Shown piece by piece: positions 8,873-39,358 of a stretch of DNA of 45,185 nucleotides. Made by a program: the position numbers and the translations under genes. The DNA comes from Bacteroidales bacterium (GTDB taxonomy: Bacteria; Bacteroidota; Bacteroidia; Bacteroidales; VadinHA17): assembly GCA_012519515.1 (NCBI GenBank), contig JAAYQC010000137.1, forward strand, positions 1 to 45,185, read 5' to 3'. Under the pieces are notes generated by a model. The model was not told the DNA's origin and did not search any database. It saw nothing but the letters and a program-made list of their open reading frames with translations. Position 1 is the stretch's first letter, and every line of letters begins with the position of its first letter.

Positions 8873-8875
8873 AGC

Positions 8876-9562: not shown

Positions 9563-10854
9563 TGCATGACATTATTATAAACTTCCGCGAGTCCGGCCGA
9601 CATTTTATCAAGCGAGAACTCCTTCCTTACCATCTCGTTTCCCTTCTTTCCAAGACTTGCAATCAGTTCTTTATCTTTCAGAAGCATGGTAAGGTTATCA
9701 GCGAGGGCATCCACGGTATCAGGGGAATATACAATCCCTCCGCCGGTTTTCCCGACAATCTCGGGAAAGGCTCCGGTAGCAGGCTGAACCACGGGTATCC
9801 CGGAAGCATTGGCCTCAAGGAGGTAGAGACCGTAGCCATCGTATTTCCTGACAGGCACGCTTATCACATCAACGTCATTGAAGAATTCAAGCTTTTTATC
9901 TCCTTCAAATTCAGGGTAAATTTTAATTGACTTTTCAAGTTTATGCTCCCGTATCTTTCTTATCTGCTCAGATATGAAATCCTTGTCTATTCCGGTATAG
10001 CCTCCGCATATTTTCAGCAACAATCCCGGGATCTCATCACGCTGTTTCATCAAAATAAAGGCATCAACCAGTTTGTCAATCCCGTTATACCTGTTTATAC
10101 GGCTGAAGAATCCTATTGAAGCGGGTTCCCTGTCAGGTCTCGAAATATCATCTTTTTCCGGATCAAAACCCAGCGGAACAACTTTGACGTTTTCGCCACT
10201 ATGCCCGGTTTTGCTTTTGAACAGTTCGCGATAATAATTGCTGGGAGTAACAAAAATATCTACATGGCCCGCTTCCTTTGCAATCATCTTCCACGCGCGC
10301 GAGCGGAAAGGCTCATCCATATCATCGATCCAGTCGTCCTCGTTCAGCAGGGAACATACCACCTTTACATCCATCCTTTGTTTAAGCTGCCTGGCTATTC
10401 CAAGAATTAGCGCGTTGGACAGATGTATAATATCGGGCTTTCCATCTTTCATCAGATATCTGACCAGCCTGTCAACTTCCTGTTTACGAAAGGCATTGTC
10501 GCCTTCTATCATGCTTATTGTCAGCTCCTCGTAGCCTTCGGTGCTGGTTGTGCCTGCCTGTTTCGCGGCAAACCTTAGAAAGAGTTTGCAATCGAGTAAT
10601 TTATCGAAAAATGCCGGCATATTTCTCAGAAAAGGCACCTTTTCCCTGAGGAACATCGAAATTGCCCCGAAGAACACATTTTTGTCGAAACCGCTTTCAC
10701 TGCCGGTTGTCTTGTCTGGCGGCAGGTAAAGAGGTATCGCGCTTGCCTTTATTCCCGGCACTTTTCTAATCGCACGAACATAAAGCATATCTCGGTAGCA
10801 GTTCCCGCAATAAAAGGACCCTCCTGATCCGGTTATCAAATAAACAATTTTCAT
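9559..10854 (-). CDS. Glycosyltransferase family 4-like protein
   Basis: 431 aa; 'PLGFDPEKD', 'GIGFFSRINRYNGIDKLVDAF'-type region, 'GYGLYLLEANASGIPVVQPATGAFPEIV' GT-B C-terminal motif; N-terminal 'YCGNCYRD'. Confidence 0.85.
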   Translation of the reverse strand: MKIVYLITGSGGSFYCGNCYRDMLYVRAIRKVPGIKASAIPLYLPPDKTTGSESGFDKNVFFGAISMFLREKVPFLRNMPAFFDKLLDCKLFLRFAAKQAGTTSTEGYEELTISMIEGDNAFRKQEVDRLVRYLMKDGKPDIIHLSNALILGIARQLKQRMDVKVVCSLLNEDDWIDDMDEPFRSRAWKMIAKEAGHVDIFVTPSNYYRELFKSKTGHSGENVKVVPLGFDPEKDDISRPDREPASIGFFSRINRYNGIDKLVDAFILMKQRDEIPGLLLKICGGYTGIDKDFISEQIRKIREHKLEKSIKIYPEFEGDKKLEFFNDVDVISVPVRKYDGYGLYLLEANASGIPVVQPATGAFPEIVGKTGGGIVYSPDTVDALADNLTMLLKDKELIASLGKKGNEMVRKEFSLDKMSAGLAEVYNNVMQ

Positions 10855-10958
10855 ATATAATATAAAAGGTATATCTATAAAGTTAGTTAAAAATCTGGAT
10901 ATACAGTAAAAATTTCACATATAATTGTAGCAGATGAATAAAATCCGGTCAGATCATT

Positions 10959-12077
10959 CTATTTTGTATTAAATGCAAGTAAACGGCCATCTTCAGTCAG
11001 GATATAGAATCTATCCCCCGTCACGGCCGGTGTACTGCTTACAGGTGCTCCGGCATTGAAACTCCAGATCTTTTTACCGTCATGTACTCCAAGCATATAA
11101 ACATTGCCGTCGGCGCTTCCGAACAAAACCTTCGAAGGTGTTATAACTGCCGACCCTGTTATTCTTCCGTTTGTCCGGAATTTCCAGTTAAGCTTTCCGG
11201 TAATAATATCATAGCTGTAAAGGTACTTGTCTTCGTTACCTATGATTACCGAATTTCTTCCAATTGCAGGTATTGCAACCACTGATCCCGATGTTTCGCC
11301 TGCCGGTACTTTCCAGGCCAGTTTGCCGGTGAGCAGGTCGACACAGAAAAAATTGCCGTCATAATCGCCGAAGCAGGCTTTTCCACCTGAAAGGGCAGGG
11401 GATGAGGCAATATAGCTGCCTATTTCTATCGTATCCTTTTCTCTTCCGGTATAGGCATCAACCACCCGGATGAATCCGTCGCAGCCGCCGAAAACAATAT
11501 TGTTGTTCGATACTGCAGGAGTTCCATTGACATAGTTAAGCGTTTCAAGCTTCCACTGTAACAAACCATTGGAAGGATCAACGGAATGAAGATAATAGTC
11601 ATAACTGCCGATTACAATGCCTGACCTTTTTGAAGTTGACCATGCATTGGCCGATCCTGCTATCTGTCCATCAGTCTTGTATCTCCAGGCAAGTTTGCCG
11701 CTTGTCTTATACACGGCATGAAGTGTTCCGTCGCTCAATCCTATTATCACCTTGTCGCCGTACACCATCGGAGGAGCTTCAGCAGCCGAGCCTCCTTCAT
11801 ATCTCCATTTTATCTTGCCGTCGGTTCCGACAGCAATCAGCGTTCCCTTATCATTTCCGAAGAAGATCATTCCGCCGCTGACCACCGGTGAAGAACTTGT
11901 TCTTCCGGTGGCTGCCAGATTCCATACAAGCGAAGGTTTTGTGGAGACTTCAATGTTTGTACTTCCTGTCAGATCAGCTTTGCCTCTGAATATGGGCCAC
12001 TCCTGAGCTGATGTTTGGGCGAGGCAGCTCAGCGGACCTGAAAGCAGCAAAACCGATATCAGGAAAAACTTTTTCAT
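10959..12077 (-). CDS. PQQ-binding-like (BamB-like) beta-propeller protein, exported
   Basis: 372 aa; signal peptide; 'EWPIFRG' start and repeated 'SSPVVSGGMIFFGNDKGTLIAV.TDGKIKWRY' blades. ATGA overlap with the upstream gene. Confidence 0.9.
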   Translation of the reverse strand: MKKFFLISVLLLSGPLSCLAQTSAQEWPIFRGKADLTGSTNIEVSTKPSLVWNLAATGRTSSSPVVSGGMIFFGNDKGTLIAVGTDGKIKWRYEGGSAAEAPPMVYGDKVIIGLSDGTLHAVYKTSGKLAWRYKTDGQIAGSANAWSTSKRSGIVIGSYDYYLHSVDPSNGLLQWKLETLNYVNGTPAVSNNNIVFGGCDGFIRVVDAYTGREKDTIEIGSYIASSPALSGGKACFGDYDGNFFCVDLLTGKLAWKVPAGETSGSVVAIPAIGRNSVIIGNEDKYLYSYDIITGKLNWKFRTNGRITGSAVITPSKVLFGSADGNVYMLGVHDGKKIWSFNAGAPVSSTPAVTGDRFYILTEDGRLLAFNTK

Positions 12078-13168
12078 GTCCCATTGTTTTCGTTAAAAAA
12101 TGCCAGTGCACCAGTAGGACATACTTCGACGCATTTTTTTGCAACTAAAGCCGGTATGTCATCAAATTCAACAGTAAGCGGTTCCGAAATCATTGATACA
12201 AAACCCCTGTTAATGAAGCAGAGAGCCGGTTCGTCAGTAGAATCTGCCACTGCCCTTACACAAAGTCCGCATTTAATACATTTGGCATTCTCAAAAACCA
12301 GGCCGGTTTTATGATTTATCTTTTTTGTCACCGGGGTATTGATGAATTTCCCCCTGGGGTCCTTAATCGAGAACATCTCTGCCAGTTCTCTCAGCCTGCA
12401 GCCGGATGAAGCACGGCAGTCACAATGCATACAGCTTGCTGCTTCCTCAGCGGCTTCTTTAAAACCGGCAATTTCCTCATGGCGTACTACTTTGTCAGGG
12501 CATTCTTTCAGCCATTCGAGTTGTTCTGTTGCATCAAGAGCACCTATTCTGGATGCAAATCTCTTTCGGACATCATTTTCTGAATATAGGGGAGACACTT
12601 CATACTTAGGAGTTTCCGGCAGGTTCCTGCTCAAAAAGATCCTGATATTCCTGATTGAAACAGGAGTGTCAATTCTTTTTCTCCTGCAGGCATTCACGCA
12701 GAAAGCCTTGCAATTGATGCAATTCAACTCGCCACCCTTCATTTCGGACCTGATAAGTTCGGCGGCTTCATCATATTCACCGGCAATAAGCAGTCTGTTC
12801 ATAAGCGGTATGTTGTATCCCATCGGGCAAACCACCCGGCACTGCGCTTCACATTCTGCCCTGTGTTCCGACAGCAGGAGAGTGACTGCCTTTTTTCTTA
12901 GGGCAATAACCTCTTCACCTGATGCATCGATATCCATTCCTTCCTGAACAAGGGCTGTGCAGGAGGGAATGAAATTGTTTCGTTTTTTGTCCCTGACCAT
13001 ACAGACCATGCATGATGAGTAAGGTTCAATTCCATCACTATGACAAAGGGTAGGAATTTCAATTCCGGCAATCCTCGCCGCATCAAGAATTGTCTGACCT
13101 TCCCTGACTTCTATCTCTGTATCGTCAATTTTGATTTTCATCTTTTTCATAAACAAGTTCAATGGCAT
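12074..13168 (-). CDS. NuoG/HydA-N-like Fe-S protein without H-cluster domain (2Fe-2S, GltD-N-like Cys domain, 4Fe-4S)
   Basis: 364 aa; 2Fe-2S motif 'CHSDGIEPYSSCMVCMV', 'HRAECEAQCRVVCPMGYNIPLMNRLLIAGEYDEAAELI...CINCKAFCVNACRRKRID' (GltD-N-like), C-terminal 'CIKCGLCVRA...CVEVCPTGAL'. Likely start at 13141 (MKIKIDDTEIEV). Confidence 0.85.
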   Translation of the reverse strand: MPLNLFMKKMKIKIDDTEIEVREGQTILDAARIAGIEIPTLCHSDGIEPYSSCMVCMVRDKKRNNFIPSCTALVQEGMDIDASGEEVIALRKKAVTLLLSEHRAECEAQCRVVCPMGYNIPLMNRLLIAGEYDEAAELIRSEMKGGELNCINCKAFCVNACRRKRIDTPVSIRNIRIFLSRNLPETPKYEVSPLYSENDVRKRFASRIGALDATEQLEWLKECPDKVVRHEEIAGFKEAAEEAASCMHCDCRASSGCRLRELAEMFSIKDPRGKFINTPVTKKINHKTGLVFENAKCIKCGLCVRAVADSTDEPALCFINRGFVSMISEPLTVEFDDIPALVAKKCVEVCPTGALAFFNENNGT

Positions 13169-15560
13169 TTTCCGGGCACACCACCCTGCAGTTGTCGCAT
13201 TTGGTACACAGCGAATAATCTATCACATGTTTCTCATAAGGTGTGAAAGGAATTGCATCAACCGGACAATCCTGTGCACATTTTGTACATCCGGTGCATT
13301 TATCACTTATAGAATATTTTACAAGGTCCCTGCATCTCTTTGAAGGACAGATTCCCCTTGTGTGGGCTTCATACTCTTCCCTGAAATACCGTAATCCGGT
13401 AATTACTGGATTGGGAGCAGTTTTTCCGAGGCCACACAGGCTTCCTTTTTTAATATCAAGGCAAAGCTGCTCAAGTTCATCCAGTTCCGCGATTGTAGCC
13501 TTGCCCTGGGTAAGCCTTGTTAGAATATCGAGCATATGTTTCGTTCCGACCCTGCAATATGTACATTTCCCGCACGACTGCTTGTGTGTGAACTCAAGAA
13601 AGTATTTTGCCATATCGACCATGCAGTCGGTATCGTCAAGAACCACCATTCCTCCTGAACCCATCATAGCCCCCAGGCGGTTCAGCTCTTCATAGTCGAC
13701 GGCTGTATCGGCAAGCCTTTCGGGAATGCATCCTCCTGAAGGTCCCCCGATCTGAACTGCCTTGAAGGTCCTTCCTTCCAGAACTCCATGTCCGATCTTT
13801 TCAACGATATCACGGATGGTAGTCCCCATCGGAACTTCAATGAGTCCTCCCCGCGCCACTTTCCCTGCAAGTGCAAATACCTTGGTTCCCTTGCTTTTTT
13901 CGGTACCTATATCATTGAATTCAGCTGAGCCGTTATTAATAATCCAGGGTACAAGCGAAAGCGTTTCCACGTTATTGACAAGCGTAGGATATCCCTTGTA
14001 ACCCTTTACGGCAGGATAAGGAGGTCTCAGGTGAGGGGTTCCGCGCTTTCCCTCGAGCGAGGCTATCAGGGCTGTTTCCTCACCGCATACAAAAGCCCCG
14101 GCACCTTCAAAAACTTCAATGCTGAATGAAAAGCCTGATCCCTTTATATTATTTCCTACTATACCTTTTTCCTTACAGATCCTCAGAGCATTTTTCACCC
14201 TTGAAACGGCCAGAGGATATTCATCCCTTATGTAAAAGATACCCCTGTCGGCTCCGGTGGCAAATCCAGCAATAAGCATTCCTTCAATAATCCTGAAGGG
14301 AAATGACTCCAGGATCATCCTGTCCATAAAAGCTCCCGGGTCTCCTTCATCGCCGTTGCATACCACATACTTGGGCTTTTCCTTCATTGCCGATGAGATC
14401 TCCCATTTTTTCCCTGTAAGGAATCCTGCTCCGCCGCGGCCTCTCAGACCGCTGGCGGTTATCAGCGATATCACCCCGGCAGGATTATTTTCCGTCAGCA
14501 CAGTCTTAAGAGCATTATAACCTCCGAGAAGCTCATATTCATCATATGAATCAGGTCTCATAACACCGCCGTTCAGCGTAGCAATATGTAACTGCTTGCT
14601 AAGGAAGTTATTCAGGGTTTTCTCCCGGGTATCGGTGGGCAGATTTACCGGACTGTAAACCATATCATCTGAAAGAAAGGTGTCGGCAATATTGTTTATC
14701 CTGAATTTCAGTTTCTTGTCGAACGATTTAGGCTGAATATGTTTCAGGATGATCTCTTCCACCTGGTCTTTTCTCACATTGGTGTATCTGGAACTTACCT
14801 TATCTCCGGAAACAATCTCAAGAAGGGGAGTCTGATTGCAGACACCCACGCAGCCAACAGGCTTAACATTTATGTTGAGCTCATAATACTCCCTTATATC
14901 AAGCAGTTTTCCAAGGATATCCCTGCTGCCTCCGGCCACACAGCATGAGCCCAGTCCAATACGGACTTCAGCGTCATAAGATTCCTGCTCCGGTTCTTCT
15001 TTCTTTTTACTTTTCTTCGATACTGATTGAAGAAAATCAGTCACTATCTCTTTTACCTGAGTAGGCTTCACGTGGCCATAGGTCTTTTCGTCAATCTGAA
15101 CCACAGGAGCAAGGGTGCAGCAGCCCAGGCAGGCTACCTCTTCAATCGAAAACAGATTATCGGGTGAGCTGTTTTTTTCTTCGCTTATCTTCAGACCCCT
15201 CCTGAAAGCATCGGCTATGAGTTCAGATCCCTTCACATGGCATGCAGTACCGGAGCATATTTTAATAGTGTGTTTCCCGGAGGGGATGTGCCTGAACTGG
15301 GAATAGAATGTTGAAACGCCTGATATCTGTCCCGGAGTGATCTCGGTCACTCTGCAAATATATTTAAGGGCTTCCGAAGGAAGATAATTAAGTCTTTTCT
15401 GCACTTTCTGCAGAACCTGTATCACCTTATCCTTCCCTGTACCTGTTTCTTTTACAACGGCATCCACAACCGAGGTTATCTCTTCGACCGAAAGAGTGCC
15501 CTGATTGCAATTACAACTTTCTGTATGTTTATTTTCCTGTTTCAATTTTGTGAAATGCAA
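13125..15560 (-). CDS. NuoE-NuoF-ferredoxin fusion (HndA/HndC or HydC/HydB-like NAD(P)H-oxidising flavoprotein)
   Basis: 811 aa; two thioredoxin-like 2Fe-2S domains ('CSGTAC...CLGCC' and 'SCC...CVGVC'), NuoF domain ('GLRGRGGAGFLTGKKWE', 'CNGDEGDPGAFMDR', 'SCGKCTYCRVGT'), C-terminal 2x[4Fe-4S]. Confidence 0.93.
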   Translation of the reverse strand: MHFTKLKQENKHTESCNCNQGTLSVEEITSVVDAVVKETGTGKDKVIQVLQKVQKRLNYLPSEALKYICRVTEITPGQISGVSTFYSQFRHIPSGKHTIKICSGTACHVKGSELIADAFRRGLKISEEKNSSPDNLFSIEEVACLGCCTLAPVVQIDEKTYGHVKPTQVKEIVTDFLQSVSKKSKKKEEPEQESYDAEVRIGLGSCCVAGGSRDILGKLLDIREYYELNINVKPVGCVGVCNQTPLLEIVSGDKVSSRYTNVRKDQVEEIILKHIQPKSFDKKLKFRINNIADTFLSDDMVYSPVNLPTDTREKTLNNFLSKQLHIATLNGGVMRPDSYDEYELLGGYNALKTVLTENNPAGVISLITASGLRGRGGAGFLTGKKWEISSAMKEKPKYVVCNGDEGDPGAFMDRMILESFPFRIIEGMLIAGFATGADRGIFYIRDEYPLAVSRVKNALRICKEKGIVGNNIKGSGFSFSIEVFEGAGAFVCGEETALIASLEGKRGTPHLRPPYPAVKGYKGYPTLVNNVETLSLVPWIINNGSAEFNDIGTEKSKGTKVFALAGKVARGGLIEVPMGTTIRDIVEKIGHGVLEGRTFKAVQIGGPSGGCIPERLADTAVDYEELNRLGAMMGSGGMVVLDDTDCMVDMAKYFLEFTHKQSCGKCTYCRVGTKHMLDILTRLTQGKATIAELDELEQLCLDIKKGSLCGLGKTAPNPVITGLRYFREEYEAHTRGICPSKRCRDLVKYSISDKCTGCTKCAQDCPVDAIPFTPYEKHVIDYSLCTKCDNCRVVCPENAIELVYEKDENQN

Positions 15561-17263
15561 AAGATACTGTTTCTACCACGAATGTAAATGTTCTTATCCG
15601 AAAACGCCGGGGTACAGTCTGAAGGCTCACCAATTGGCGATTCTGCAATCAGCCGGTACTCCGGACCGGCATTGACTATATGCATCAATCCGCTTCTGTC
15701 GAGGCAGTAAACCTTATCCCCGGCAATAATCGGTGAAGCATAGAACTGATCCGGGAAGTAATGTGTCCACAGGGTGTCTCCTTTCATTGCATCGTAGCAC
15801 GCAAGGTCGCCAACACCAGTAGCAATGAAAAGGTATTGGTTGTTGGCAACAGGACTGGACACATCAGAGGTAAACATATTATCTTCCCAGACAATTGAAG
15901 GACCGGGACCGGGTTTCACCGCGGCCAGGCGTGAATAATCAGTTACGGCATAAACATAATTGCTGTTAATAGCGAGGGAGGGAGCCACATCACCGCTGAG
16001 AACCTCATAGGCCCACAGTTCCTTTCCTGTTGCAGGATCGAATGAAGCCACTTCAGGGTTGCGATTGATAAGCACCTGTGTTATTCCGTTGAATGTCGCG
16101 ATTGATGGTGAAGACCAGGACGATCTTCCCCTCCTCAAGGTTTCCCACTTCATATCGCCTGTTGAAGTATCGAAGCCCATTACCGAAACCTTCTCGTCCG
16201 AATCGAACTGGACAATCAGGGTGCCCTCGTGTATTATAACAGAGCATGAATAGCCGTAGATATTTTCCGGTGTTCCGATATTCTTGCCCCATTTTAATTT
16301 TCCGTCCATATCGAGGCACACCAGGTTTCCGTTTGCAAAAATCGCACAAACGGAATTACCGTCAGTTGCGGCAGTGGGAGCAGCTATGCCAGTGTCGTGG
16401 TCAGTGTCGGGTGGAGCATCGGGCTGACCGGGCAGTCCTGAGGCTGGGGCTGTCCATAGCAAATCGCCGCTGTTCTTGTCAAGACAATATACCTCACAAT
16501 TGTTGCCTTCGGCGCCGGTAACGAATAGTTTGTCGCCCCATATCACCGGTGAGCTTTTGCCGTTCATTGCAACGCTTGTCTTCCATTTAATGTTGGTTCC
16601 GCTTTCGGCATCCCATTCAACCGGGTAATCAGTTCCGCCGGCAATGCCTCTGCCGTCCTGACCTCTGAAAAAGGGAAAATTAACCGGATCGGGAAAGAAA
16701 GTCTCCTCTGACACATAAGCTGATGTTTCTCCCTTCTCCTTTTTCTTTTCACTCTTTTCTGCTTTCGCGGTTCTTCTGCCCGAGAGGTCAGGCAAATCCT
16801 TCCTTAGAATGAATGAAGAAACTATTGCGCCAAGCGTCAGCACGGCAACCGCTCCGGCGAGATATTTTGCATACCTTGCTTTTTCAGAGACCTGATCAGT
16901 TTTTTCTCCCGGTACTGAAGGAAGGTTCTTTTCACTACCTGCAATAAGCCTCTGACAGAGTACGAATATTACAGCACCGCTTATCAGCAGCCATGAACCC
17001 GTTTCAAGTTGCCGGCGGGAGGAAAAATAGGCTTTCCTTGCCATAAGGTCGAGCGCTCTTACCTGCTCAGCCTTAACTGCATTTTCATGATCCTTGTCAA
17101 ATTCCTCCTTTACCGATACTATCGCGGGATTGTCAAGCGGATCGAGGGCTTTCATCTGGATTATGCTCAGGAGCATGGTCAGCGCTACGATCAGCGTGAA
17201 TATACCAGCAGCGGTACCGATTCCCCTGAGAATCTTCAGATCCTTTTCATCAAGCTTTATCAT
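15542..17263 (-). CDS. Membrane-anchored PQQ-like beta-propeller protein
   Basis: 573 aa; three N-terminal hydrophobic segments, Lys/Glu-rich linker, then propeller ('FPFFRGQDGRG', 'SSPVIWGDKLFVTGAEGNNCEVYCLDKNSGDLLWT'). Confidence 0.88.
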   Translation of the reverse strand: MIKLDEKDLKILRGIGTAAGIFTLIVALTMLLSIIQMKALDPLDNPAIVSVKEEFDKDHENAVKAEQVRALDLMARKAYFSSRRQLETGSWLLISGAVIFVLCQRLIAGSEKNLPSVPGEKTDQVSEKARYAKYLAGAVAVLTLGAIVSSFILRKDLPDLSGRRTAKAEKSEKKKEKGETSAYVSEETFFPDPVNFPFFRGQDGRGIAGGTDYPVEWDAESGTNIKWKTSVAMNGKSSPVIWGDKLFVTGAEGNNCEVYCLDKNSGDLLWTAPASGLPGQPDAPPDTDHDTGIAAPTAATDGNSVCAIFANGNLVCLDMDGKLKWGKNIGTPENIYGYSCSVIIHEGTLIVQFDSDEKVSVMGFDTSTGDMKWETLRRGRSSWSSPSIATFNGITQVLINRNPEVASFDPATGKELWAYEVLSGDVAPSLAINSNYVYAVTDYSRLAAVKPGPGPSIVWEDNMFTSDVSSPVANNQYLFIATGVGDLACYDAMKGDTLWTHYFPDQFYASPIIAGDKVYCLDRSGLMHIVNAGPEYRLIAESPIGEPSDCTPAFSDKNIYIRGRNSIFCISQN

Positions 17264-18539
17264 TCTTAATCTTATTTAAATGTACAGGACAATACTGGAA
17301 GCACTTGCCACAGCTGAAGCATTTGCCCTTATGTGGTACATATTCAGTTCTTCTGGTTCGTGTTGACAATGAAACAAGGCTTAGTCCGAATGATATTCCG
17401 AGGAATAGTCCCATCCAGATCGAAGCCTTGCGGAAGCGCTCATGTATGTGCATCTCTTTTTCAAACAGTTCGGCATTTGTGGTTCCTGCTTCCTTGAAGC
17501 TCAGTGCAGCCTGCGAAATTGCCGGTATACCATGTTCGGCTTCAGCCCTGATTTCCCTTGCAAGTCTCACATCACTGTTGAGTCCGGTAAGAACAGGGGA
17601 GAGGCTTGAGAAAATAACAGCTCCTGCAACGGCAAAAACCGGGACAAGCAGAATCCAGGTAAGAAATCTCTTTCGTTCCTTTTCCGGTTCAACAAGCGGG
17701 CGGGCAAGATCCGCGGGAAGAATGGCATTGTAGGGGCATGCATCCTCGCACAATCTGCAATTGGTACATTCGGAAGGTGTAATAGTAAGATGCTTTTTAG
17801 AGAATCGTGAAAAGATATTGAGTAAAACACCGTAAGGGCAAAGATATCTGCAGTAGGGACGGTTTACAAATATCCCCGTTATAAGCAGCAAGGCTCCGAA
17901 GATCGCCATAGTATATGGAGCATTGAGCCTGAAGATGCCGACAAAGGGATCGTAACGACATATAAGGAACTGGCTTTCGGTAGCTGCCGAAAGAACCGAT
18001 AAGCCCAGGTAGACAAAAGGCACTGATATCATTATTGACTCTACAACTCTTGGAAATTTGACAGTCCGGAATCCGACCAGTTCCTGTATCGCGCCCAGGG
18101 GGCACACGCCGGCGCAGAACACCCTTCCGAAGGCAAGTGCGAAGAGCAGCGGAATAATAAAGAACAGAAGTGCTGTGAGCGGAATTGAATAAGTATCATT
18201 AAAGAGAGCCAGTGCAACGTTCTGAATGGAACCGACCGAACAGATGCAACCTTCCCTGAAGAAACCGAAATAAGCCAGTGAAAATACCGACAGCCAGACC
18301 AGTCCGTTCCGGGAGCGTTTTTTGAGAGCCAGCCAGGCAGCCACCGAAAGAGCAGCTATAAGGACAGCGAGATCGATGTATTCCCAGACGGGAGCCCTGT
18401 CGGCCGGCATCTGGTGCTCGGGATAAACGTAACCGGATTCAAATTCCGGTCTCGGGAATCTTTCCTGTGCAAAAAGGACGGCATGCCATGCAAGCATGAC
18501 AAACAGCAGAATATATGGAAGCTTCTTTTTCACCTTCAC
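17250..18539 (-). CDS. NapH/NosR-C-like polytopic 4Fe-4S membrane protein
   Basis: 429 aa; TM segments with 'GRVFCAGVCPLGAIQELVG', 'RPYCRYLCPYGVL', 'CTNCRLCEDACPYNAI', C-terminal 'CFSCGKCFQYCP'. Confidence 0.88.
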   Translation of the reverse strand: MKVKKKLPYILLFVMLAWHAVLFAQERFPRPEFESGYVYPEHQMPADRAPVWEYIDLAVLIAALSVAAWLALKKRSRNGLVWLSVFSLAYFGFFREGCICSVGSIQNVALALFNDTYSIPLTALLFFIIPLLFALAFGRVFCAGVCPLGAIQELVGFRTVKFPRVVESIMISVPFVYLGLSVLSAATESQFLICRYDPFVGIFRLNAPYTMAIFGALLLITGIFVNRPYCRYLCPYGVLLNIFSRFSKKHLTITPSECTNCRLCEDACPYNAILPADLARPLVEPEKERKRFLTWILLVPVFAVAGAVIFSSLSPVLTGLNSDVRLAREIRAEAEHGIPAISQAALSFKEAGTTNAELFEKEMHIHERFRKASIWMGLFLGISFGLSLVSLSTRTRRTEYVPHKGKCFSCGKCFQYCPVHLNKIKNDKA

Positions 18540-19103
18540 TTAAATCTTTTCTTTTGGAATATACTGGACTTTGTCGGAGATCCTTGATATGGCACCGGAA
18601 GGACAACTCCTTGCTATTGCACATTCGTTGCAGTTCACACAAAGGTTCTGATCGATCTGAAGATAAAGCGAGCCGTTGCCGAAATCCTTGCATCCCTTGA
18701 CACATTTTCCACAGCCGTCGCAAAGATCTTTATCGACGGTATACTCGAAATATGGTTCCTCGACGAATTTGCGGGTTATTGCACCGGTGGGACACATCTG
18801 ATTCTCTGCTCCCGTGCTGATGGTTCTCGCACCCTGCCGGAGGTATCCACCGCAGAGGTCGCAATAACCGCACATCTGATAATTATGCATGCATTTTACT
18901 GCCGAGGGAGTAAGCACGCAATGTGTTTTGCACTGTCCGCAGGTGTTGCATTTGTAAGGATCTATCTGCCAGACTGTTCCCGCGGTTGTTATCTTTGTGG
19001 AAAGAACAACGGGGAGAGCCAGTACCGGAACGGCAACAAGGACTTTACCTGCTTTCCTTACAAAGTCCCTTCGCGACTTATATATATTATCTTTCTCCAT
19101 CAT
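18540..19103 (-). CDS. Exported polyferredoxin with twin-arginine-like signal
   Basis: 187 aa; 'SRRDFVRKAGKVLVAVPVLALPVVLS' signal and several CxxCxxC...CP motifs ('CNTCGQCKTHC', 'CDGCGKCVKGC', 'CVNCNECAIARSCP'). Confidence 0.88.
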   Translation of the reverse strand: MMEKDNIYKSRRDFVRKAGKVLVAVPVLALPVVLSTKITTAGTVWQIDPYKCNTCGQCKTHCVLTPSAVKCMHNYQMCGYCDLCGGYLRQGARTISTGAENQMCPTGAITRKFVEEPYFEYTVDKDLCDGCGKCVKGCKDFGNGSLYLQIDQNLCVNCNECAIARSCPSGAISRISDKVQYIPKEKI

Positions 19104-19279
19104 CTTGAGAATTTACTACAGTCATTTTCACTTGTGCAGAGTCCTTTGCCCGGACAGTCTGAACAATTCTTTCCCCTGACGGTTCTTGATCCGAGAGCAA
19201 GTGCAAGAAAAGCCAGAAAGGCAAGCAGGAGACTTCTTGCAAGTTTCTCTATAAAATCCGGTCGTGTCATCTTAGTCAT
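19100..19279 (-). CDS. Small Cys-rich single-TM protein (59 aa), absent from the ORF track
   Basis: Hand translation MTKMTRPDFIEKLARSLLLAFLAFLALALGSRTVRGKNCSDCPGKGLCTSENDCSKFSR*; 4-nt ATGA overlaps with the genes on both sides; C-x2-C-x5-C-x5-C after one TM helix. Confidence 0.8.
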   Translation of the reverse strand: MTKMTRPDFIEKLARSLLLAFLAFLALALGSRTVRGKNCSDCPGKGLCTSENDCSKFSR

Positions 19280-20190
19280 TTTCTTTTGAAGACATAAAGT
19301 TTATTGTCAAAGCTGTTTGCACCATAAATTGTTTCACCGTCGGCTGATGCCACATCGAGTGGAACCGACTGGTTGAAATCATTGTTCACCGATACAAAGG
19401 CAATGAATTTACCTTCCTTGTCAAGGATTTTGATTCTGTTGATTCCCTTTTCAGCAGTAAGGAAACCTTGCGGGACAATGGCAAAATGAACGGGGTTGCA
19501 GCATCCGCAGAATGCTCCCGGAGCAGTTCCTGCCTCCCCGAATTCAGAAAGCTTTCTACCGTCGATGCTCCATGTTTCTATTCTCCTGTACCCGGTGTTT
19601 GTCGCGAAAACCAGGTTACCCGACACTGCAACATCAAAATAGGGACTGGGGATCACAAATCTTTCGTTACCCTGACCCATCATTGTCACAACCTCTCCAC
19701 CCTTGTTCAGAACAAATATCCTTTTGTTCCCTGCATCGGCAAATACAACATACCGTGGCGAAGCAGAAACCGAGGTAATCAGGCAGTCTGCCTCATAGGG
19801 TCCCCATTCACCGATCAGTTTTCCTGAAGGCGAAATAAGGTAGATAAGCTCACTACTTGCAGCAAACACGGTGTCGCCGGATACTGCCAGGGCTGTAATG
19901 CTTTCTTCTGTTTCGACTGACCAGAGTTCCTTAAAATCCTTAGTCATAGCCGACACATGTAATCCGCCGCCAACAAAAACATTTCCGTCCTGTCCGGCCG
20001 CAACTGAGGAGAGCGAGCCTGAAGGAACGTTAAAGGATTTTTTAATTTCCCAATCAGCCTCATAATCCCTGCCTGGCCTTGATGTCGTATTGCTTACAGC
20101 AGGGCCTGCCCTGAATGCATCATAGATCATGTAGCCCATGAATGCCAGGAGTATTACGAGAGAAAATATGGCGGCCGCGTCCTTCTTCAT
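19276..20190 (-). CDS. NHL/six-bladed beta-propeller protein with N-terminal TM anchor
   Basis: 304 aa; 'AAIFSLVILLAFMGYMIYDAF' TM; NHL-like blades; 'GAFCGCCNPVHFAI' motif. Confidence 0.8.
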   Translation of the reverse strand: MKKDAAAIFSLVILLAFMGYMIYDAFRAGPAVSNTTSRPGRDYEADWEIKKSFNVPSGSLSSVAAGQDGNVFVGGGLHVSAMTKDFKELWSVETEESITALAVSGDTVFAASSELIYLISPSGKLIGEWGPYEADCLITSVSASPRYVVFADAGNKRIFVLNKGGEVVTMMGQGNERFVIPSPYFDVAVSGNLVFATNTGYRRIETWSIDGRKLSEFGEAGTAPGAFCGCCNPVHFAIVPQGFLTAEKGINRIKILDKEGKFIAFVSVNNDFNQSVPLDVASADGETIYGANSFDNKLYVFKRK

Positions 20191-20191
20191 G

Positions 20192-21658
20192 TTATATCCC
20201 TGTTCCGATATTCAGACAGAGCAGGTTTCGTGCATCCCTGAGAATGAGGTAATTTCCGGCGATAGCCATAGGTCCCCATGCTTCAATCCCATCAAGAATA
20301 TCATAATGTGAGAGCATGGAGGCAGTTGCGCCTTCGAGCCTGAAAATGTAAAGGTTTGCATCATCATCAAGAAGTATGAGTCTGTCGTCCTTTACAATAA
20401 ACGGCCCGAGCCCTCTTCCGAACCTCATGTCCTTTCCACTGCTCCAGATAAGGTTCCTGAGATCAGACTTATGATAGGAGACAAGCTGTTTTTTCAGTGG
20501 TCCGGCATTCTCGGGCATCACTGACCAGACATAGTCACCTGTAAGAATTGGAGTTTGCTGGTCGCTTGACAATCCTTCCATTGCCTTATGAGTTTCAATA
20601 AGGGTAACAGAGTATCCTGATCCGTCAAAGTCAACTCTGATTTTTCCACCGCCTGCGCCATAGCTTCCGAAGACAGCTATTTCTCCGTTACCCAGATACA
20701 GCGGGGAGGCCGCGGTGGTTGCAGGGTTCCATTCCTTTGTCTTCCACAGTACCCGCCCGACATCACTTCCGTCGGCAGCAACACCTACAACTCCTCCCAC
20801 GGCATTGTAAACATACATCTTCCTTCCATGGATGACCATCGGAATTATTGAACCGTGCGACATCATCAGTGAGTCAGGGTTAGGAGTGCGCCACAGAATC
20901 TCCCCGTCAGCACAATTCACGCCGATCATCAGGGCTTTACCGCCGGGAGCAAGTATTGCAACATCGTTATCAATAAGAGGACACTGGCCTGCATAGAAAT
21001 CAGGTGTTATCTTGCCCTTTGAACTTCCGGGAACACCAAATTCCTTTTCCATGTCGATGGTCCAGAACAGATCGCCGGTGATCGGATCAACGCACATTAC
21101 ATGCGACCTGGGTCCGATGGTTACCACATACTTGTCGGTCACGGCAGGAATAGTACGCGAATAGCCATGATTACGCTTCATTTCCACATTGTACCATCTC
21201 CTCCAGAGTTCGGTACCCGATTTCAGGGAGAAACAGCGCAGCATATCGGCTTTTCTCCTTTCATTATAGTCAAGAAGGTAAACCCTTCCGTTCTTGACAG
21301 CCGGTCCGGCATAGCCCTCACCAAGAGTTACCTTCCACATTACCGGCGGACCTGTGGTATCCCACGATTCAGCCATTGCAAAGGTATCCCTGACAATGTT
21401 ATCGAAATTGACACCCCTGAACCTTGGCCATTCGCCGGATACCATTTCGTCGAAAGTACCAAGCGAGTCGAAGAATTCACCAACAATGACTTCCTCCGAC
21501 CGCGGTTCGATTTTTGGTCTGTTGTCCATACCCGGTACCCTCATAGTCATTTCAGCCGGATAATGGTCGGCGGCAAGCCACCATACCAGTACCGCGGCAA
21601 AGATAACTGCAGATACCCCGGTAAGAAGTCTGTTATTTTTCCTTAATGTCATATGCAA
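20192..21658 (-). CDS. PQQ-binding-like beta-propeller protein, membrane anchored
   Basis: 488 aa; N-terminal TM; 'EWPRFRGVNFDNIVRDT', 'GPAVKNGRVYLLDYNERRKADMLRCFSLKSGTELWRRWY' blades. Confidence 0.88.
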   Translation of the reverse strand: MHMTLRKNNRLLTGVSAVIFAAVLVWWLAADHYPAEMTMRVPGMDNRPKIEPRSEEVIVGEFFDSLGTFDEMVSGEWPRFRGVNFDNIVRDTFAMAESWDTTGPPVMWKVTLGEGYAGPAVKNGRVYLLDYNERRKADMLRCFSLKSGTELWRRWYNVEMKRNHGYSRTIPAVTDKYVVTIGPRSHVMCVDPITGDLFWTIDMEKEFGVPGSSKGKITPDFYAGQCPLIDNDVAILAPGGKALMIGVNCADGEILWRTPNPDSLMMSHGSIIPMVIHGRKMYVYNAVGGVVGVAADGSDVGRVLWKTKEWNPATTAASPLYLGNGEIAVFGSYGAGGGKIRVDFDGSGYSVTLIETHKAMEGLSSDQQTPILTGDYVWSVMPENAGPLKKQLVSYHKSDLRNLIWSSGKDMRFGRGLGPFIVKDDRLILLDDDANLYIFRLEGATASMLSHYDILDGIEAWGPMAIAGNYLILRDARNLLCLNIGTGI

Positions 21659-22967
21659 AAAAAGCTTCTCCGTGTCTTATATAAAGCACACCGTTATGGA
21701 TAACGGGATGTGCCCAGTACGGACCGGATCCGCCATTGATTTTAAAACTGCTTACAAGATCAAAGCCGGCCGGATCGGGCCGCAGCAAACCAACGTTGCC
21801 ATTTTTTTCTTCATAGATATAAAGCATGCCATCGGCAGCCATTATTGATCCTTTATTGTTCCAGTGCTCTTCCCACATAAGCTCGCCTGCCTTCCAGTCA
21901 ACGCAACACCAGTTACCGTTACCATTGTTTATCCAGTTCGATCCGTAAATGTAGCCGTCAACAACCACGACTCCGCCATGGTGCACATCCATAATCTCAT
22001 TCTTCCACACAAAAGAAGCCTTTTTGCCATCATCGCCTATGTCGATCATCAAACCACCGTGATCGTATCCTCCTGACATATAAATCATGTTTCCTGAAGA
22101 TACCGGAGTAACGCACAAGATCTGACCTGTATCGTTGATATCTGATTTGCCCAAAGCCTCCCTGTGATTTATCTTCCAAAGCATTGATCCGTTGGAAACA
22201 TCAATTCCAAATATGAATCGTGGTGTTATGTTTACCAGGATTTTCGTCCCGGCTTTCTTTACAAGAGTAGGAGAAAGATAAGAAGCAGGATCATTTACGC
22301 TTTCCGATTTCCAGATAAGCTCACCTGAATTCTTGTTAAGCGCTATTGTTGTTGTCTGGGGTCCGCCGGTAGTAAAATAAAGCTTGTCACTATCAATCAT
22401 TGGAGATTCGGCTATGCCCCATGGACCATATGTTCCGCCATACTCTTCGCTTGCCTTCAGCGACCATATTATTTCACCCGATATACCATTTATGCATGCA
22501 AGATCACCGTAACCGCTGCTTACGTAAACTCTTTCTCCATCCACTGTCGGTGTACATCTGCTTTCCGGGTATGACTTTTCCCAGCATCTTCCGTAAGGAG
22601 TTTTCCATATAATCTTTCCGGAGGGGTCAAGTGCAACAAGAACATCATTCGGCTCTTCCAGACCTGTTATATATATAGTGTTGTTTCCGAAGACGGGAGA
22701 GGAGTTACCCTTTGGTAATTCATTGGTTGACCAGATCAGTCCGGGGCCTTCATCAGGCCACGATTTCATCAGCCCTTTTGCTGACGAAACACCCGACCGG
22801 TCGTCTTCCCTCCATCCGATCACTTCATTGTCTTTAATCTTAACCATGGAAGTATCAGAGGGACTGACAGACACTCTGGGATCCTTTGAGATCAGATAGA
22901 AAACTCCGTATTCGATGGCACCGATGATTATCAGGGTAAGTACCAATATCAGAATTCTTTTTATCAT
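21633..22967 (-). CDS. PQQ-binding-like beta-propeller protein, membrane anchored (first gene of operon)
   Basis: 444 aa; N-terminal TM; 'SSPVFGNNTIYITGLEEPNDVLVALDPSGKIIWKTPYG' blades. Confidence 0.88.
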   Translation of the reverse strand: MIKRILILVLTLIIIGAIEYGVFYLISKDPRVSVSPSDTSMVKIKDNEVIGWREDDRSGVSSAKGLMKSWPDEGPGLIWSTNELPKGNSSPVFGNNTIYITGLEEPNDVLVALDPSGKIIWKTPYGRCWEKSYPESRCTPTVDGERVYVSSGYGDLACINGISGEIIWSLKASEEYGGTYGPWGIAESPMIDSDKLYFTTGGPQTTTIALNKNSGELIWKSESVNDPASYLSPTLVKKAGTKILVNITPRFIFGIDVSNGSMLWKINHREALGKSDINDTGQILCVTPVSSGNMIYMSGGYDHGGLMIDIGDDGKKASFVWKNEIMDVHHGGVVVVDGYIYGSNWINNGNGNWCCVDWKAGELMWEEHWNNKGSIMAADGMLYIYEEKNGNVGLLRPDPAGFDLVSSFKINGGSGPYWAHPVIHNGVLYIRHGEAFFAYDIKEK

Positions 22968-23194: not shown

Positions 23195-23950
23195 TCAGGA
23201 GTTCCGTACAATCCATGCCTTGAATTCTGCTGCCCTGTTTTTACTCACATAAATTCTTTCCGGCGTTTCCACATCAAGTGTTACAAGCAACCGGCTATCG
23301 AACCAGATTGTTATATTTTTAACACTGCTACGGGCAACAATGAATTGCTTGTTAGCCCTGATGAATTCCTCCGGATTTAGTATCGACTCAATCTGCTCAA
23401 GTGTTCCGGGGTAAGGGAACCATTTACCATTTTTCAGACATACCCTGGTATTTTTTTTAGTAGAATAAAAACATGACAGCTCTTCTGTTCCGACGGGTTG
23501 AAGCTGGTCTTTCACAGGTATCAGAATCTTGTCCCTGAATGTCTGTTTCGGAGAAAGCTGACTAAGCTGTGCCAGGTATTTAACTACTTCCTGCCTGTTC
23601 AGCTTCCGGAATTTTTCAAGCGCCCTTTTCAGGTCATCTTTCTTAACGGGTTTCAGCAGATAATCAATACTGTTAACCCTGAAAGCCTCAATGGCATATT
23701 CATCATAAGCCGTTATGAAAATAACCGGCGTTTCAATGTTCAGTTTGTCAAAGACCGAGAAAGCCGATCCGTCGGACAAATGGATATCCATTAGGATCAG
23801 ATCAGGCAATTCGTTGTTTTTCAACCATCTGACAGTCTGAGCAATACTTTCGGTACAGCCTGCAATATTAATCTCAGGTTCTATTTCCTTCAGAATAACC
23901 CAAAGGTTTTCGCATGCTGCAGTTTCGTCTTCTACAATCAAAATTCTCAT
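23195..23950 (-). CDS. LytTR-family response regulator
   Basis: 251 aa; receiver 'MRILIVEDE', 'DLILMDIHLSDGSAFSVF', 'KPVKKDDL'; C-terminal LytTR-type DNA-binding domain. Confidence 0.92.
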   Translation of the reverse strand: MRILIVEDETAACENLWVILKEIEPEINIAGCTESIAQTVRWLKNNELPDLILMDIHLSDGSAFSVFDKLNIETPVIFITAYDEYAIEAFRVNSIDYLLKPVKKDDLKRALEKFRKLNRQEVVKYLAQLSQLSPKQTFRDKILIPVKDQLQPVGTEELSCFYSTKKNTRVCLKNGKWFPYPGTLEQIESILNPEEFIRANKQFIVARSSVKNITIWFDSRLLVTLDVETPERIYVSKNRAAEFKAWIVRNS

Positions 23951-23956
23951 GTCGTA

Positions 23957-24997
23957 TTACTTTAAAGGCAGGAATACGGCAAAAGTTTTGCCATCATTAA
24001 TTATCCTTATCCTACGGTTCAGAAGAAGCCAGAACCGGCTTTCCAGGTTTTTGAGGCCGGTTCCGTTTGTTTCAGGAGCTACCAATTTGGGGAAAATTGG
24101 ATTTGAAACCACAAGTTCCGAGCTTTCATTGAGCCATATCCGTACCTCCATTTTGTGTTCACTGTCGATGGTATTGTGCAATACAATATTCTCGAGTAGG
24201 GGAAGCAAGGATAGAACGGGGATTCTGAGATCAAGTTTGTCTTCAGCTACCTCAGACAGAAATACCAGCTTACCTGCAAAACGGACTTCCATCATATAAA
24301 TGAAAGCCTTCAGGAAGCCGAGCTCTTCTTCAAGACTAACCATCACCTTCCTTTCACTCTGAAGAATATATCGGAAAACATCCGACAGCTTATTCACGTA
24401 CTCCAGAGTCAGCTCATCATTTTTCTTCCTTATCAACGATGCAAGTCCGTTAAGAGAATTGAAAAAGAAATGGGGATTGATCTGATTTGCAAGTGCATTA
24501 TAGCGGCTTTCAAGATTTTCGATACGCAGCTGCTCGATTTCATGTTCCTTTTTTCTCTGTTCTGAAAGAAGAAATGTAAGGTGGCCGACAAGCATTGAGA
24601 AAATGAAGATCACAAAGAACTGAAACAGAAGCAGTCCGGTAAACCATTCCTGTTTCGGGCTGAGTACCACTGAAAAACCTATGTAGATACCATAGGCTAT
24701 CAGGGTGATCGCAAGACTGCAAAGCAAACGCTTAACAAAAAGAGGTGTTTTTATCTTCCTTAGATTGACGATAATAAGCAACCATGTCAAAGTTGCAAAA
24801 AAGAGGTATCTGAAGATAAAGAACAAGAGATGCACGGTGCTCTTTGACTCTCCGAGATACTCGCGTTCCATTGAAAAGAATGCTATATTTGGATAGATGA
24901 AGAACACCGAGCATACCAGACTGAAGACAAATATTTTGAAAGCTGTGATTTTCTCAGGCAGTTTCTTTTCTTCATTTCTGTTAAACAGAGTACTCAT
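23957..24997 (-). CDS. LytS-type sensor histidine kinase
   Basis: 346 aa; multiple TMs then 'NQINPHFFFNSLNGLASLIRKK...FRYILQSERKVMVSLEEELGFLKAFIYMMEVRF' (His_kinase PF06580-like). Confidence 0.93.
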   Translation of the reverse strand: MSTLFNRNEEKKLPEKITAFKIFVFSLVCSVFFIYPNIAFFSMEREYLGESKSTVHLLFFIFRYLFFATLTWLLIIVNLRKIKTPLFVKRLLCSLAITLIAYGIYIGFSVVLSPKQEWFTGLLLFQFFVIFIFSMLVGHLTFLLSEQRKKEHEIEQLRIENLESRYNALANQINPHFFFNSLNGLASLIRKKNDELTLEYVNKLSDVFRYILQSERKVMVSLEEELGFLKAFIYMMEVRFAGKLVFLSEVAEDKLDLRIPVLSLLPLLENIVLHNTIDSEHKMEVRIWLNESSELVVSNPIFPKLVAPETNGTGLKNLESRFWLLLNRRIRIINDGKTFAVFLPLK

Positions 24998-26982: not shown

Positions 26983-27864
26983 TTAAGAGTTCAGGGCTCC
27001 CAGTGCCAGGAGTCCATAAAAGGTGTATTCAATATCGGGATCCGGATCGAGCGGATGACCTGAAAAACCACCGTCAATAAAAAGTGAATCAATAAAAGAG
27101 AGCGAATCAGGTTTTATCTCCCTCAGATCGTACCCGCAAAAATTAAGGGCATATAGTGCTACGGCTGTAGAAAGAAGATCGGGTATGGGAGTGGATCCGG
27201 TTGCCCTGAAACCTCCCTTTCCGTCGTAAAATGCCATCACTTGCTTAATATGTCCATCAACTGGCTCTCTGAAACTTCCGGCAAGAACCAGTGAAGCGGC
27301 AGCGAGGGGGCAGGGGAGATCCTCATTAAATGAAAGTGTCTTCATCTTCCTTCTTAATCTGAAGATTCCCCTGAAATCGCGCAGATACCAGTAACTCAGC
27401 ACACTCAAAAAAGCTCCGTACAGTTTCTGTTCGTTCATTCCCGGGGACATTCTCAATCTTGCACCATGGAGTTTTTTAAATTCGCCTGTTCTGCCGCTGA
27501 GGGCGGAAAGAATGGCAAGGCAATGAAGATAAACGCCTTGGGGTTCTTTCCTGTTGATTTCAGTGCTTACATATGGCCAGACCAGGTCGCATTCCTTTTT
27601 CATTCCCAGTGCATCTGCCGTAAACCATCCGAAAAGAGTGTAATAGAGATCCGGGTTTCCGGCCCTGTCTTTAAATCCGCCTGATGAGGATTGGGAACTT
27701 CCAATAAAGCTTTTCAATTCAAAGGCAACAGCGTCATCCAGGATATCAACTGAACGCTTCAGTATCTTTTCAGGACTTTTTTCCTCAAATTTCTTTATGA
27801 AAGGAGCTGCCAGAAAGCTAAACATAGTCAGCGAAAGTTTTTCCCACGATTTCATGCAGTGCAA
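26983..27864 (-). CDS. Prenyltransferase/squalene-cyclase-like alpha-alpha barrel protein lacking DXDD
   Basis: 293 aa; 'SSGGFKDRAGNPDLYYTLFGWFTADAL', 'YDGKGGFRATGSTPIPDLLSTAVALYALNF', 'DGGFSGHPLDPDPDIEYTFYGLLALGAL'. Start may be 27825 (M14). Confidence 0.75.
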   Translation of the reverse strand: MHCMKSWEKLSLTMFSFLAAPFIKKFEEKSPEKILKRSVDILDDAVAFELKSFIGSSQSSSGGFKDRAGNPDLYYTLFGWFTADALGMKKECDLVWPYVSTEINRKEPQGVYLHCLAILSALSGRTGEFKKLHGARLRMSPGMNEQKLYGAFLSVLSYWYLRDFRGIFRLRRKMKTLSFNEDLPCPLAAASLVLAGSFREPVDGHIKQVMAFYDGKGGFRATGSTPIPDLLSTAVALYALNFCGYDLREIKPDSLSFIDSLFIDGGFSGHPLDPDPDIEYTFYGLLALGALNS

Positions 27865-29470
27865 CTTTCAGCCTCAGGTCTGAAATATCTTCCAGACAAC
27901 GGTATGTACTTTCAAGGTATCCGGCCAACATGGCATTAAGCTGTTCCCTGATCCGGTATTTTTCAGCCAGAATCTGCAGATCCTTCATTACCTTGTTTTT
28001 AAGCGCCTCGTTTATAGTACTCAGATCATCAGCTCCGGCCTGTGCGGCAAGCATTGAAACAAGTATTGACTGATCAACAAAGGAAGAAGAAGCGTTTTCA
28101 TCCCTGAAATCCTCAAGGTCATCCTTCATCTGGTAGGCGATCCCGATGAGATCGCTAAAAAGTTCAAGCAGTTTCAGTGTCTCATTGTCAGCGCCTGATG
28201 CAAAGGCTCCCACCTGAAGTGAGACCTTGAATGCTGCAGAAGTTTTGTTTCTGAAAACCTCAATAATTTCCTCCACCGACAATATCCTTTCTTCGCGGCG
28301 GGCCATAAGTTCCTCACCCTGACCGAGCGACATTGCCCTGTGACCCTTAGAAACTGCTTTCAGGCACAAGGCAACACGATCGGGAGGCAGCCCCGATTCT
28401 GCCAGCAGCCTGTATCCCTCGCCGATAAGCAGATCGCCCAGGTTGATTGCAACGGGTATTCCGTAGCGGGTATGAATAGTCTCCTTTCCGTATCTGAATG
28501 AGTCATTGTCTTCAATATCATCATGTATAAGCGAGGCTTTATGAAAACACTCAACGGACATTGCAAGATGAGCCATAATATCCTGATCAGGGTCATTGTC
28601 GAAGGTTTCACAGGCAAGTACGGTAAACAGCGGGCGTATCCTTTTTCCTCCGGCCATAAGCATCTCTTTTACCATCCTGCCTGTAGCGGAATCTGAAGTA
28701 CCAAGGATAGCGTCAATTCTTGCTTCGTTGAAAAGGGCAGAGGTTTTCTCTTTCAGAATATTGATATTCAACAAGCTGAAAGTCGAATCCCTGTCTATGT
28801 AATTTATCTCCTCACTTACCCACTCAGCATCGGCTGTAGTGTCCTTGCATCCGCAGGTTAAAAGGGGGATTCCTGTTGAAGGGATGGAATATTTCGTTAC
28901 CGAATTGAACATCTTTCTAAGCACATCCATACATCCTACACCTACAACAGCATCAACCTTGCCGCTTTCGACCAGGCGAGTGGCAATTGTTGTACCCTCG
29001 GCCACCATTGCAATGTATCCAAGGTCCTCGGCTTCCCTAAGGAAGCAGCATATATTGCAGTTCCCGCATTCACTGCACAAAAGGCCAAGCTCATCTTCCA
29101 CCCCGGTACATAGTTTACTGTTTCTAAGGCACATCGGAAGCAGCAGCATACGGCGGTGGAAGGGAACCGAGCCTACAACGGGCTTCCATGCCGCGTTACC
29201 TCCGCATACCATAACAAAAGCCTTATAGTCTCTGTCCCAGTGGTTTTCCGATATCAGGGTATCGGCATAAGATTCAAGCTGACTATATGAAACAGGCGGC
29301 AATATTTTCCTGTCGGAAAAGAATTGCCCGGTTTTTTGACGGATTTCCTTACGCAGACTGTCATCCGGCGGAACCACGAGGGGCATAACAGTTTCCTGTC
29401 CGATCCCGGCAATATTGCGATTAGTATCATCCATAAGCGCCCATTCCAAAAAAAGCAGTCCGTTTGGCAA
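27818..29470 (-). CDS. DUF116-like / trans-polyprenyl diphosphate synthase fusion
   Basis: 550 aa; N-terminal Cys-rich 'LLLPMCLRNSKLCTGVEDELGLLCSECGNCNICCFLREAEDLGY..VAEGTT' (DUF116-like); C-terminal synthase with both Asp-rich motifs 'HDDIED' and 'KDDLEDF'. Likely start 29434 (MDDTNRN). Confidence 0.85.
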   Translation of the reverse strand: MPNGLLFLEWALMDDTNRNIAGIGQETVMPLVVPPDDSLRKEIRQKTGQFFSDRKILPPVSYSQLESYADTLISENHWDRDYKAFVMVCGGNAAWKPVVGSVPFHRRMLLLPMCLRNSKLCTGVEDELGLLCSECGNCNICCFLREAEDLGYIAMVAEGTTIATRLVESGKVDAVVGVGCMDVLRKMFNSVTKYSIPSTGIPLLTCGCKDTTADAEWVSEEINYIDRDSTFSLLNINILKEKTSALFNEARIDAILGTSDSATGRMVKEMLMAGGKRIRPLFTVLACETFDNDPDQDIMAHLAMSVECFHKASLIHDDIEDNDSFRYGKETIHTRYGIPVAINLGDLLIGEGYRLLAESGLPPDRVALCLKAVSKGHRAMSLGQGEELMARREERILSVEEIIEVFRNKTSAAFKVSLQVGAFASGADNETLKLLELFSDLIGIAYQMKDDLEDFRDENASSSFVDQSILVSMLAAQAGADDLSTINEALKNKVMKDLQILAEKYRIREQLNAMLAGYLESTYRCLEDISDLRLKVALHEIVGKTFADYV

Positions 29471-30613: not shown

Positions 30614-31465
30614 TTAATTTATTGGAGATCCGCCACGGGCTTTGTCTCTTTCCGAAAGCGCTTTTTTCATCGCCTCATCCCTTATTATCGACTGTCTTTT
30701 CAACTTCCTGCGCTGAAGGGCCTTGTATATATCATCCCCCAGGAATTCCTCGATATCCTGTGCCTGCCTCTGATGCTCTGCCTTTTCGTCAATCATATCC
30801 GATCCGCCTATTGCTCCACCATGCCTGTATTTAGGGAAAATTATAGCCGTGGCAGGACAAATCCTGGCACATGCCGGACAGTTATTCTTGCAAGCTTCAG
30901 GATCAGTCACAAGAATACGGCCTTCTTCCTTACTGTAAACCCCGAAGAGGCAGAAATCGGCACACTGACCGCACGAAGTACAGCGTGAATAATCTATAAG
31001 AGGATACCACGAAGGCCATCCTGATTCTTCAACAATTTCGACCAGGTTATGTTTTTCAGAGAAATCAGCGAGAAACTCGTCAATTTTACCGGCAACATCC
31101 TTGAAGGAGGAATCAATAAGATCAATGTGAATAAACTCAGGCAGGGGACTGGCCTCGCCGTATGATTTCCTGAAAAGAATGTCCATGCTCCGGCGGTGGC
31201 ATCCTATAAGCATATTCCTGGTACCCTCAGTAAACAATCCGTTCAGTTCATCCTTCCTTTTCGCTGCAATACCGCAAAGATCCGACAACCTGGTCACTTT
31301 TGCCGGAACGCTTCCGAGGTATTCATCAACATCCCTGAGCAAGGCGCCATCAATCCTTTCGCCGCCGCACCTGCAAAATATTATGTGTCTGCCGCCGGTT
31401 GGTACTGATTTATTTTCCATCATGCAAAAATAATAAATCCGATGGTCAATTAAACCTGAATTCAC
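30614..31465 (-). CDS. Ferredoxin-type 4Fe-4S protein with N-terminal Cys domain
   Basis: 283 aa; 'DYSRCTSCGQCADFCLFGVYS...CKNNCPACARICPATAIIFP'; N-terminal 'IIFCRCGGERI...LCGIA...MLIGCHRR'. Likely start 31423 or 31420. Confidence 0.82.
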   Translation of the reverse strand: MNSGLIDHRIYYFCMMENKSVPTGGRHIIFCRCGGERIDGALLRDVDEYLGSVPAKVTRLSDLCGIAAKRKDELNGLFTEGTRNMLIGCHRRSMDILFRKSYGEASPLPEFIHIDLIDSSFKDVAGKIDEFLADFSEKHNLVEIVEESGWPSWYPLIDYSRCTSCGQCADFCLFGVYSKEEGRILVTDPEACKNNCPACARICPATAIIFPKYRHGGAIGGSDMIDEKAEHQRQAQDIEEFLGDDIYKALQRRKLKRQSIIRDEAMKKALSERDKARGGSPIN

Positions 31466-33220: not shown

Positions 33221-33221
33221 A

Positions 33222-36259: not shown

Positions 36260-36324
36260 CACTGAAATGGCGGCCAAAGGGAGGATTAAAAAAAGGAACA
36301 TTAAATTAAACAAACCAGATAAAC

Positions 36325-37887: not shown

Positions 37888-37936
37888 TAAATCATAGAGA
37901 CCTGGACTTGCACGACCTGCACGACCTTTCATCTCC

Positions 37937-39301: not shown

Positions 39302-39358
39302 GCAGTAAATGTAGAAAAAATTAATATATTTAAGCCTTAACCCTTTCATGTCCAAATT

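Follow-up and report, generated by a model that had tools for sequence, protein, structure and literature searches.

The window, meaning the whole 45,185-nucleotide stretch of Bacteroidales DNA analysed here (contig JAAYQC010000137.1 of assembly GCA_012519515.1), carries a compact cassette of five co-oriented genes that encode, in order, a ferredoxin-like protein, a radical SAM protein, a fusion of a DUF116 domain with a prenyl synthase domain, a small alpha-alpha toroid protein and a class II terpene-cyclase-like protein. Neighbouring genes of the five either overlap or are separated by about 8 bases at most. Their coordinates, together with those of a two-component pair and of a redox module on the downstream side, are collected in Table 1.

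Table 1. Features of the cassette and its surroundings in the window; the start of the fusion is the probable one.
Feature	Position	Strand	Evidence and remarks
Ferredoxin-like protein, two 4Fe-4S motifs in C-terminal half	30614..31465	-	Fer4_2, Fer4_6 above cut-off; likely start ATG 31423
Radical SAM protein, 392 aa	29427..30605	-	PF04055, E 1.1e-16
DUF116-prenyl synthase fusion, 538 aa	27818..29434	-	PF01976, PF00348; start from ATGA-type overlap
Fusion, N-terminal part, residues 1-215, with DUF116 and seven invariant Cys	28790..29434	-	Profile match, alignments
Fusion, prenyl-synthase part, residues 216-538	27818..28789	-	Asp motifs, RY at 314-315, no GKxxG loop
Small alpha-alpha toroid protein, 280 aa	26983..27825	-	PF00432, E 3.6e-7; start overlaps fusion stop
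Class II terpene-cyclase-like protein, 593 aa	25193..26974	-	PF13243, E 4.7e-29; PF13249, E 6.6e-20
Histidine kinase (23957-24997) and LytTR response regulator (23195-23950)	23195..24997	-	Profile matches
Redox module, associated with but outside the cassette	5606..22967	-	Profile matches, gene-order comparison

In the ORF list, the fusion appears as a minus-strand frame at 27818-29470, and the profile search places DUF116 and then polyprenyl_synt within this single open frame. In the numbering of the TTG-started ORF, PF01976 (DUF116) matches residues 85-221, covering profile positions 19-154 of 155 (E 2.7e-27; 95.6 bits against a cut-off of 25), and PF00348 (polyprenyl_synt) matches residues 265-459 (E 1.3e-41; 142.9 bits, cut-off 27). 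These matches bear out the original prediction, made from the sequence alone, that one ORF unites the two domains; a comparison with the Pfam DUF116 profile had been proposed there as a check, and all the cysteine motifs quoted for the N-terminal domain are found in the fusion. The TTG start behind the coordinates 27818-29470 is probably wrong. The ATG at 29434, which gives a protein of 538 residues, is preferred because, in an ATGA-type overlap (ATGGATGA), it shares bases with the codon that ends the radical SAM gene upstream.

To gauge how widespread this arrangement is, 393 evenly drawn Bacteroidales genomes were surveyed. DUF116 and a prenyl-synthase domain share one open frame in 16 of them, the window's own included, and in a seventeenth (G137) the DUF116 part runs into the contig end; the fusion-bearing genomes are spread over 11 Bacteroidales families. 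A scan of genome contigs added one close fusion, 77% identical to the window's protein and carried by a separate MAG (L002), as well as one plain prenyl synthase (L003). Across a phylum-wide sample of 396 genomes, the window's fusion is the sole one with a prenyl synthase, the remaining DUF116 matches being without that part and one of them being joined to a lipoate ligase, and no fusion was found in the viral contigs and plasmids searched. The count of genomes with the same fusion, for which the original prediction had called, therefore stands at 15 other sampled Bacteroidales genomes plus L002. The window's genome is a 255-contig assembly, a circumstance that could favour an assembly or gene-calling artefact uniting two genes. 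The independent copies of the open frame in 15 genomes and in L002, and the co-divergence of both domains, lead us to reject this explanation, whose probability is negligible.

The fusion had also been called unexpected, which is true only in part, since it recurs in 11 families and was already on record: a DUF116-polyprenyl synthetase fusion, Psta_0175, was reported in Pirellula staleyi in 2015 (PMC5898192), and the fusion as such is therefore not new. As described there, Psta_0175 has the same fusion partner as the window's protein. For the five-gene cassette, its association with a redox module and the altered isopentenyl diphosphate (IPP) site, no description was found in the open-licence literature searched.

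The DUF116 family (PF01976, COG1852, arCOG02078) has been described as metal-binding, with a CxxCxxC motif plus further cysteines and a predicted flavodoxin-like fold, and electron transfer was proposed as its role in 2015 (PMC5898192). The fusion has the same domain and the same type of cysteine pattern, whereas archaeal members differ in being stand-alone proteins with transmembrane helices. Seven cysteines, C102, C109, C120, C123, C126, C168 and C196 in the 538-residue numbering, are invariant in 17/17 fusions and include the CxxCxxC motif. They also align in 24/24 DUF116 proteins without a prenyl synthase, C102 being present in 23 of these and the single exception being a truncated sequence; C129, C130 and C194, which belong to the motifs first quoted, show no conservation. 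The family match and the seven conserved residues back the predicted metal or Fe-S signature, and the cysteine-rich domain of the fusion is, judging by sequence, probably an Fe-S domain. At L062:1402-3009 (minus strand), in a genome from elsewhere in the Bacteroidota (G479), DUF116 lies behind a lipoate-protein ligase domain; here too it is joined to an enzyme, but it is C-terminal and its partner is not an isoprenoid enzyme.

A cysteine-rich domain in cis with a prenyl synthase might also act as an on-off switch for the enzyme, sensing redox state or metal, and redox sensing was indeed suggested in the original prediction. This function finds no direct support. The constant company of radical SAM and ferredoxin genes suits electron supply better, and the same cysteine set occurs in DUF116 proteins without a prenyl synthase and in the lipoate ligase fusion, so that we consider a sensor role improbable.

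The C-terminal domain shares its fold family with the trans-isoprenyl diphosphate synthases (PF00348), including both Asp-rich motifs (D305-D309 and D438-D442) and the KT and Q motifs, and its nearest solved structures are GGPP synthases such as PDB 1wy0. Across the aligned fusions, R267, H298, K397-T398, Q435 and both Asp motifs are invariant. Apart from its N-terminal DUF116, the fusion departs from this enzyme family at three places. The Arg-Arg that follows the first Asp motif has become Arg-Tyr (residues 314-315) in 17/17 fusions, whereas the other prenyl synthases in the fusion-bearing genomes have both arginines (29/29). The lysine of the GGKxR motif is variable, being lost in 7/17 fusions, while the arginine of the same motif, R267, is kept in all. 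Lastly, where all 14 synthases compared have a GKxxG loop behind the second Asp motif, none of the 17 fusions has one. In farnesyl diphosphate synthase, the second arginine and the GGK lysine touch the diphosphate of IPP. The description of the domain as a complete prenyl synthase thus holds for the two Asp-rich motifs, but completeness is doubtful because the presumed IPP site is changed, with RY in place of RR and the GKxxG loop missing.

With these changes at the presumed IPP site, the domain may take a compound different from IPP as its acceptor, and the chances that it does not elongate chains are about even; IPP binding may nevertheless survive, given the retention of R267, H298 and both Asp motifs. 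Comparable changes have been reported in other members of the family. In insects, substitutions in IPP-binding motifs accompany the conversion of chain-elongating enzymes into terpene synthases (PMC10962984), and in fungal IDS-like terpene synthases the loss of an arginine, R81, matters (PMC7484799). These enzymes resemble the fusion in belonging to the prenyl-synthase family and having IPP-site changes, and differ from it in being eukaryotic and without DUF116. Equating the fungal R81 with the RY position was considered and rejected: its numbering seems to fit the GGKxR arginine, R267, and because that residue is kept in the fusions, R81 is not counted as support for a lost use of IPP; the retained arginine speaks, rather, against a complete loss.

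The conserved residues would equally suit an ordinary prenyl diphosphate synthase, making GGPP or a longer chain and feeding the cyclase, with DUF116 docking or transferring electrons and so drawing its radical SAM partner close. Both Asp motifs, K397-T398, Q435, R267 and H298 are all as this explanation would have them, and so is the alanine five places before the first Asp motif, which is found there in longer-chain synthases. It fits less well with the replacement of RR by RY and the absence of the GKxxG loop in all 17 fusions, with the loss of the GGK lysine in seven, and with the presence of two further prenyl synthases in most cassette genomes, the window's included, by which basic chain synthesis is covered. 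An ordinary synthase is therefore a possible reading, though not a probable one. One fusion, at L041:8035-9465 (minus strand) in G205, is shortened after the second Asp-rich motif, to 476 residues, although G205 has an intact cassette and redox module.

Comparison of loci shows the fusion as gene 3 of five in nearly all those with enough contig, several other cassette loci stopping at contig edges. G392 has no cyclase gene within about 2.4 kb downstream of the fusion, and in G016 the upstream part of the contig, 1.3 kb long, contains no radical SAM gene. Pairwise divergences of six cassette domains or genes are correlated (Spearman 0.75-0.91, the observed value being reached by at most 1 of 1000 permutations), which argues that these genes have diverged together, although part of the correlation comes from shared species history. 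The histidine kinase/LytTR pair adjoins the cassette in L002 and G112 as well and is absent from most other loci.

Among the cassette proteins, the radical SAM protein is the best conserved (mean pairwise identity 0.56), and beyond its CxxxCxxC motif the alignment contains five invariant cysteines, C116, C188, C266, C285 and C324. No named NCBIfam subfamily matched it above cut-off. Two tandem radical SAM proteins with distant similarity to this enzyme are encoded at L120 and L122 (G766), in Bacteroidota outside the Bacteroidales. The cyclase-like protein has a DADDT motif (D343-T347), of which D343, D345 and D346 are invariant in 12 full-length aligned sequences; these form DxDD, the acid motif of class II cyclases.

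A DxDD class II cyclase-family protein and a radical SAM protein in one context recall the hopanoid pathway, with its squalene-hopene cyclase and HpnH. The DxDD protein would then cyclise squalene and an HpnH-like radical SAM enzyme would modify the product, in keeping with the hopene-cyclase-family domains, the weak HpnH score and the squalene/phytoene synthase family genes of some cassette genomes. The scores themselves, however, lie far under the equivalog cut-offs, at 80.9 bits against 431.1 for squalene-hopene cyclase (TIGR01507) and 41.2 against 225.05 for the HpnH adenosyl-hopene transferase (TIGR03470), and both assignments were rejected on these grounds. Moreover, no squalene/phytoene synthase family gene was found in five cassette genomes (G000, G112, G100, G205 and G016), the window's genome, of 97% completeness, being among the five; most others have one. 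A hopanoid-type pathway is accordingly very unlikely. As this gene was not found there, squalene is an unlikely cyclase substrate in the five genomes, where a prenyl diphosphate or prenylated compound appears more likely.

The redox module lies downstream of the cassette in the window, and its gene order is kept in many Bacteroidales. It encodes PQQ-like and NHL propellers, ferredoxins (one probably exported), a NapH-like membrane polyferredoxin, NuoEF-like and NuoG-N-like proteins, a glycosyltransferase and a LolD/FtsX-like ABC exporter. The NapH-like protein occurs in about 69 of the 393 Bacteroidales genomes and is concentrated in those with the cassette (15/17, against 54/376 others; Fisher p 1.2e-10, uncorrected for relatedness), and in the window, as in G023, G205 and G257, cassette and module form one contiguous stretch. 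The module also occurs in about 54 genomes that lack the cassette, which makes the link between them an association and not a requirement.

Taken together, these features suggest an Fe-S-assisted, prenyl-modifying fusion as the central enzyme of a five-gene modified-isoprenoid cassette with radical SAM and class II cyclase steps, a proposal that we judge as likely to be right as wrong. The C-terminal domain would bind an allylic prenyl diphosphate via the two Asp-rich motifs, R314, K397 and Q435, and the prenyl group would probably be passed to, or activated for, something other than IPP. The seven invariant cysteines of DUF116 would bind at least one Fe-S cluster, and the domain, together with the ferredoxin-like protein, could hand electrons to the radical SAM enzyme, which is proposed to work on the same prenyl substrate as the fusion. 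The DxDD protein might then cyclise the chain by protonation, aided by the small toroid protein. The product would most likely be a membrane lipid or a lipid-type cofactor from which the redox module so often encoded alongside could profit. The metabolic channelling of the original prediction comes nearer to this model, as the gene lies in a dedicated isoprenoid/radical SAM/ferredoxin cassette, although electron transfer suits the neighbours better.

Carried further, the model would mean an undescribed pathway whose product is a prenyl lipid or cofactor, cyclised and modified by the radical SAM enzyme, and in which a non-elongating enzyme of the prenyl-synthase family, with a tethered Fe-S domain, serves a membrane electron-transfer complex of the Bacteroidales; this extension is tentative and, on balance, rather unlikely. 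If the product did prove to be a new prenyl lipid or redox cofactor, an unexplored lipid pathway of the Bacteroidales would be opened. DUF116 has so far been an orphan metal-binding family whose role was only guessed, and the fixed, co-diverging chemical context described here makes its function testable by expression of the five genes.

Two minor observations concern other parts of the window. Within the redox module, the protein encoded at 19276-20190 (minus strand) is an NHL-type propeller with a GCCNP motif and weak similarity to ScyF, a family of the scytonemin cluster. Three sulfatase genes, together with one for a SEC-C-motif radical SAM/SPASM protein that may be the sulfatase maturase, lie at 31787-39355, a region that looks like an ordinary polysaccharide-use locus.
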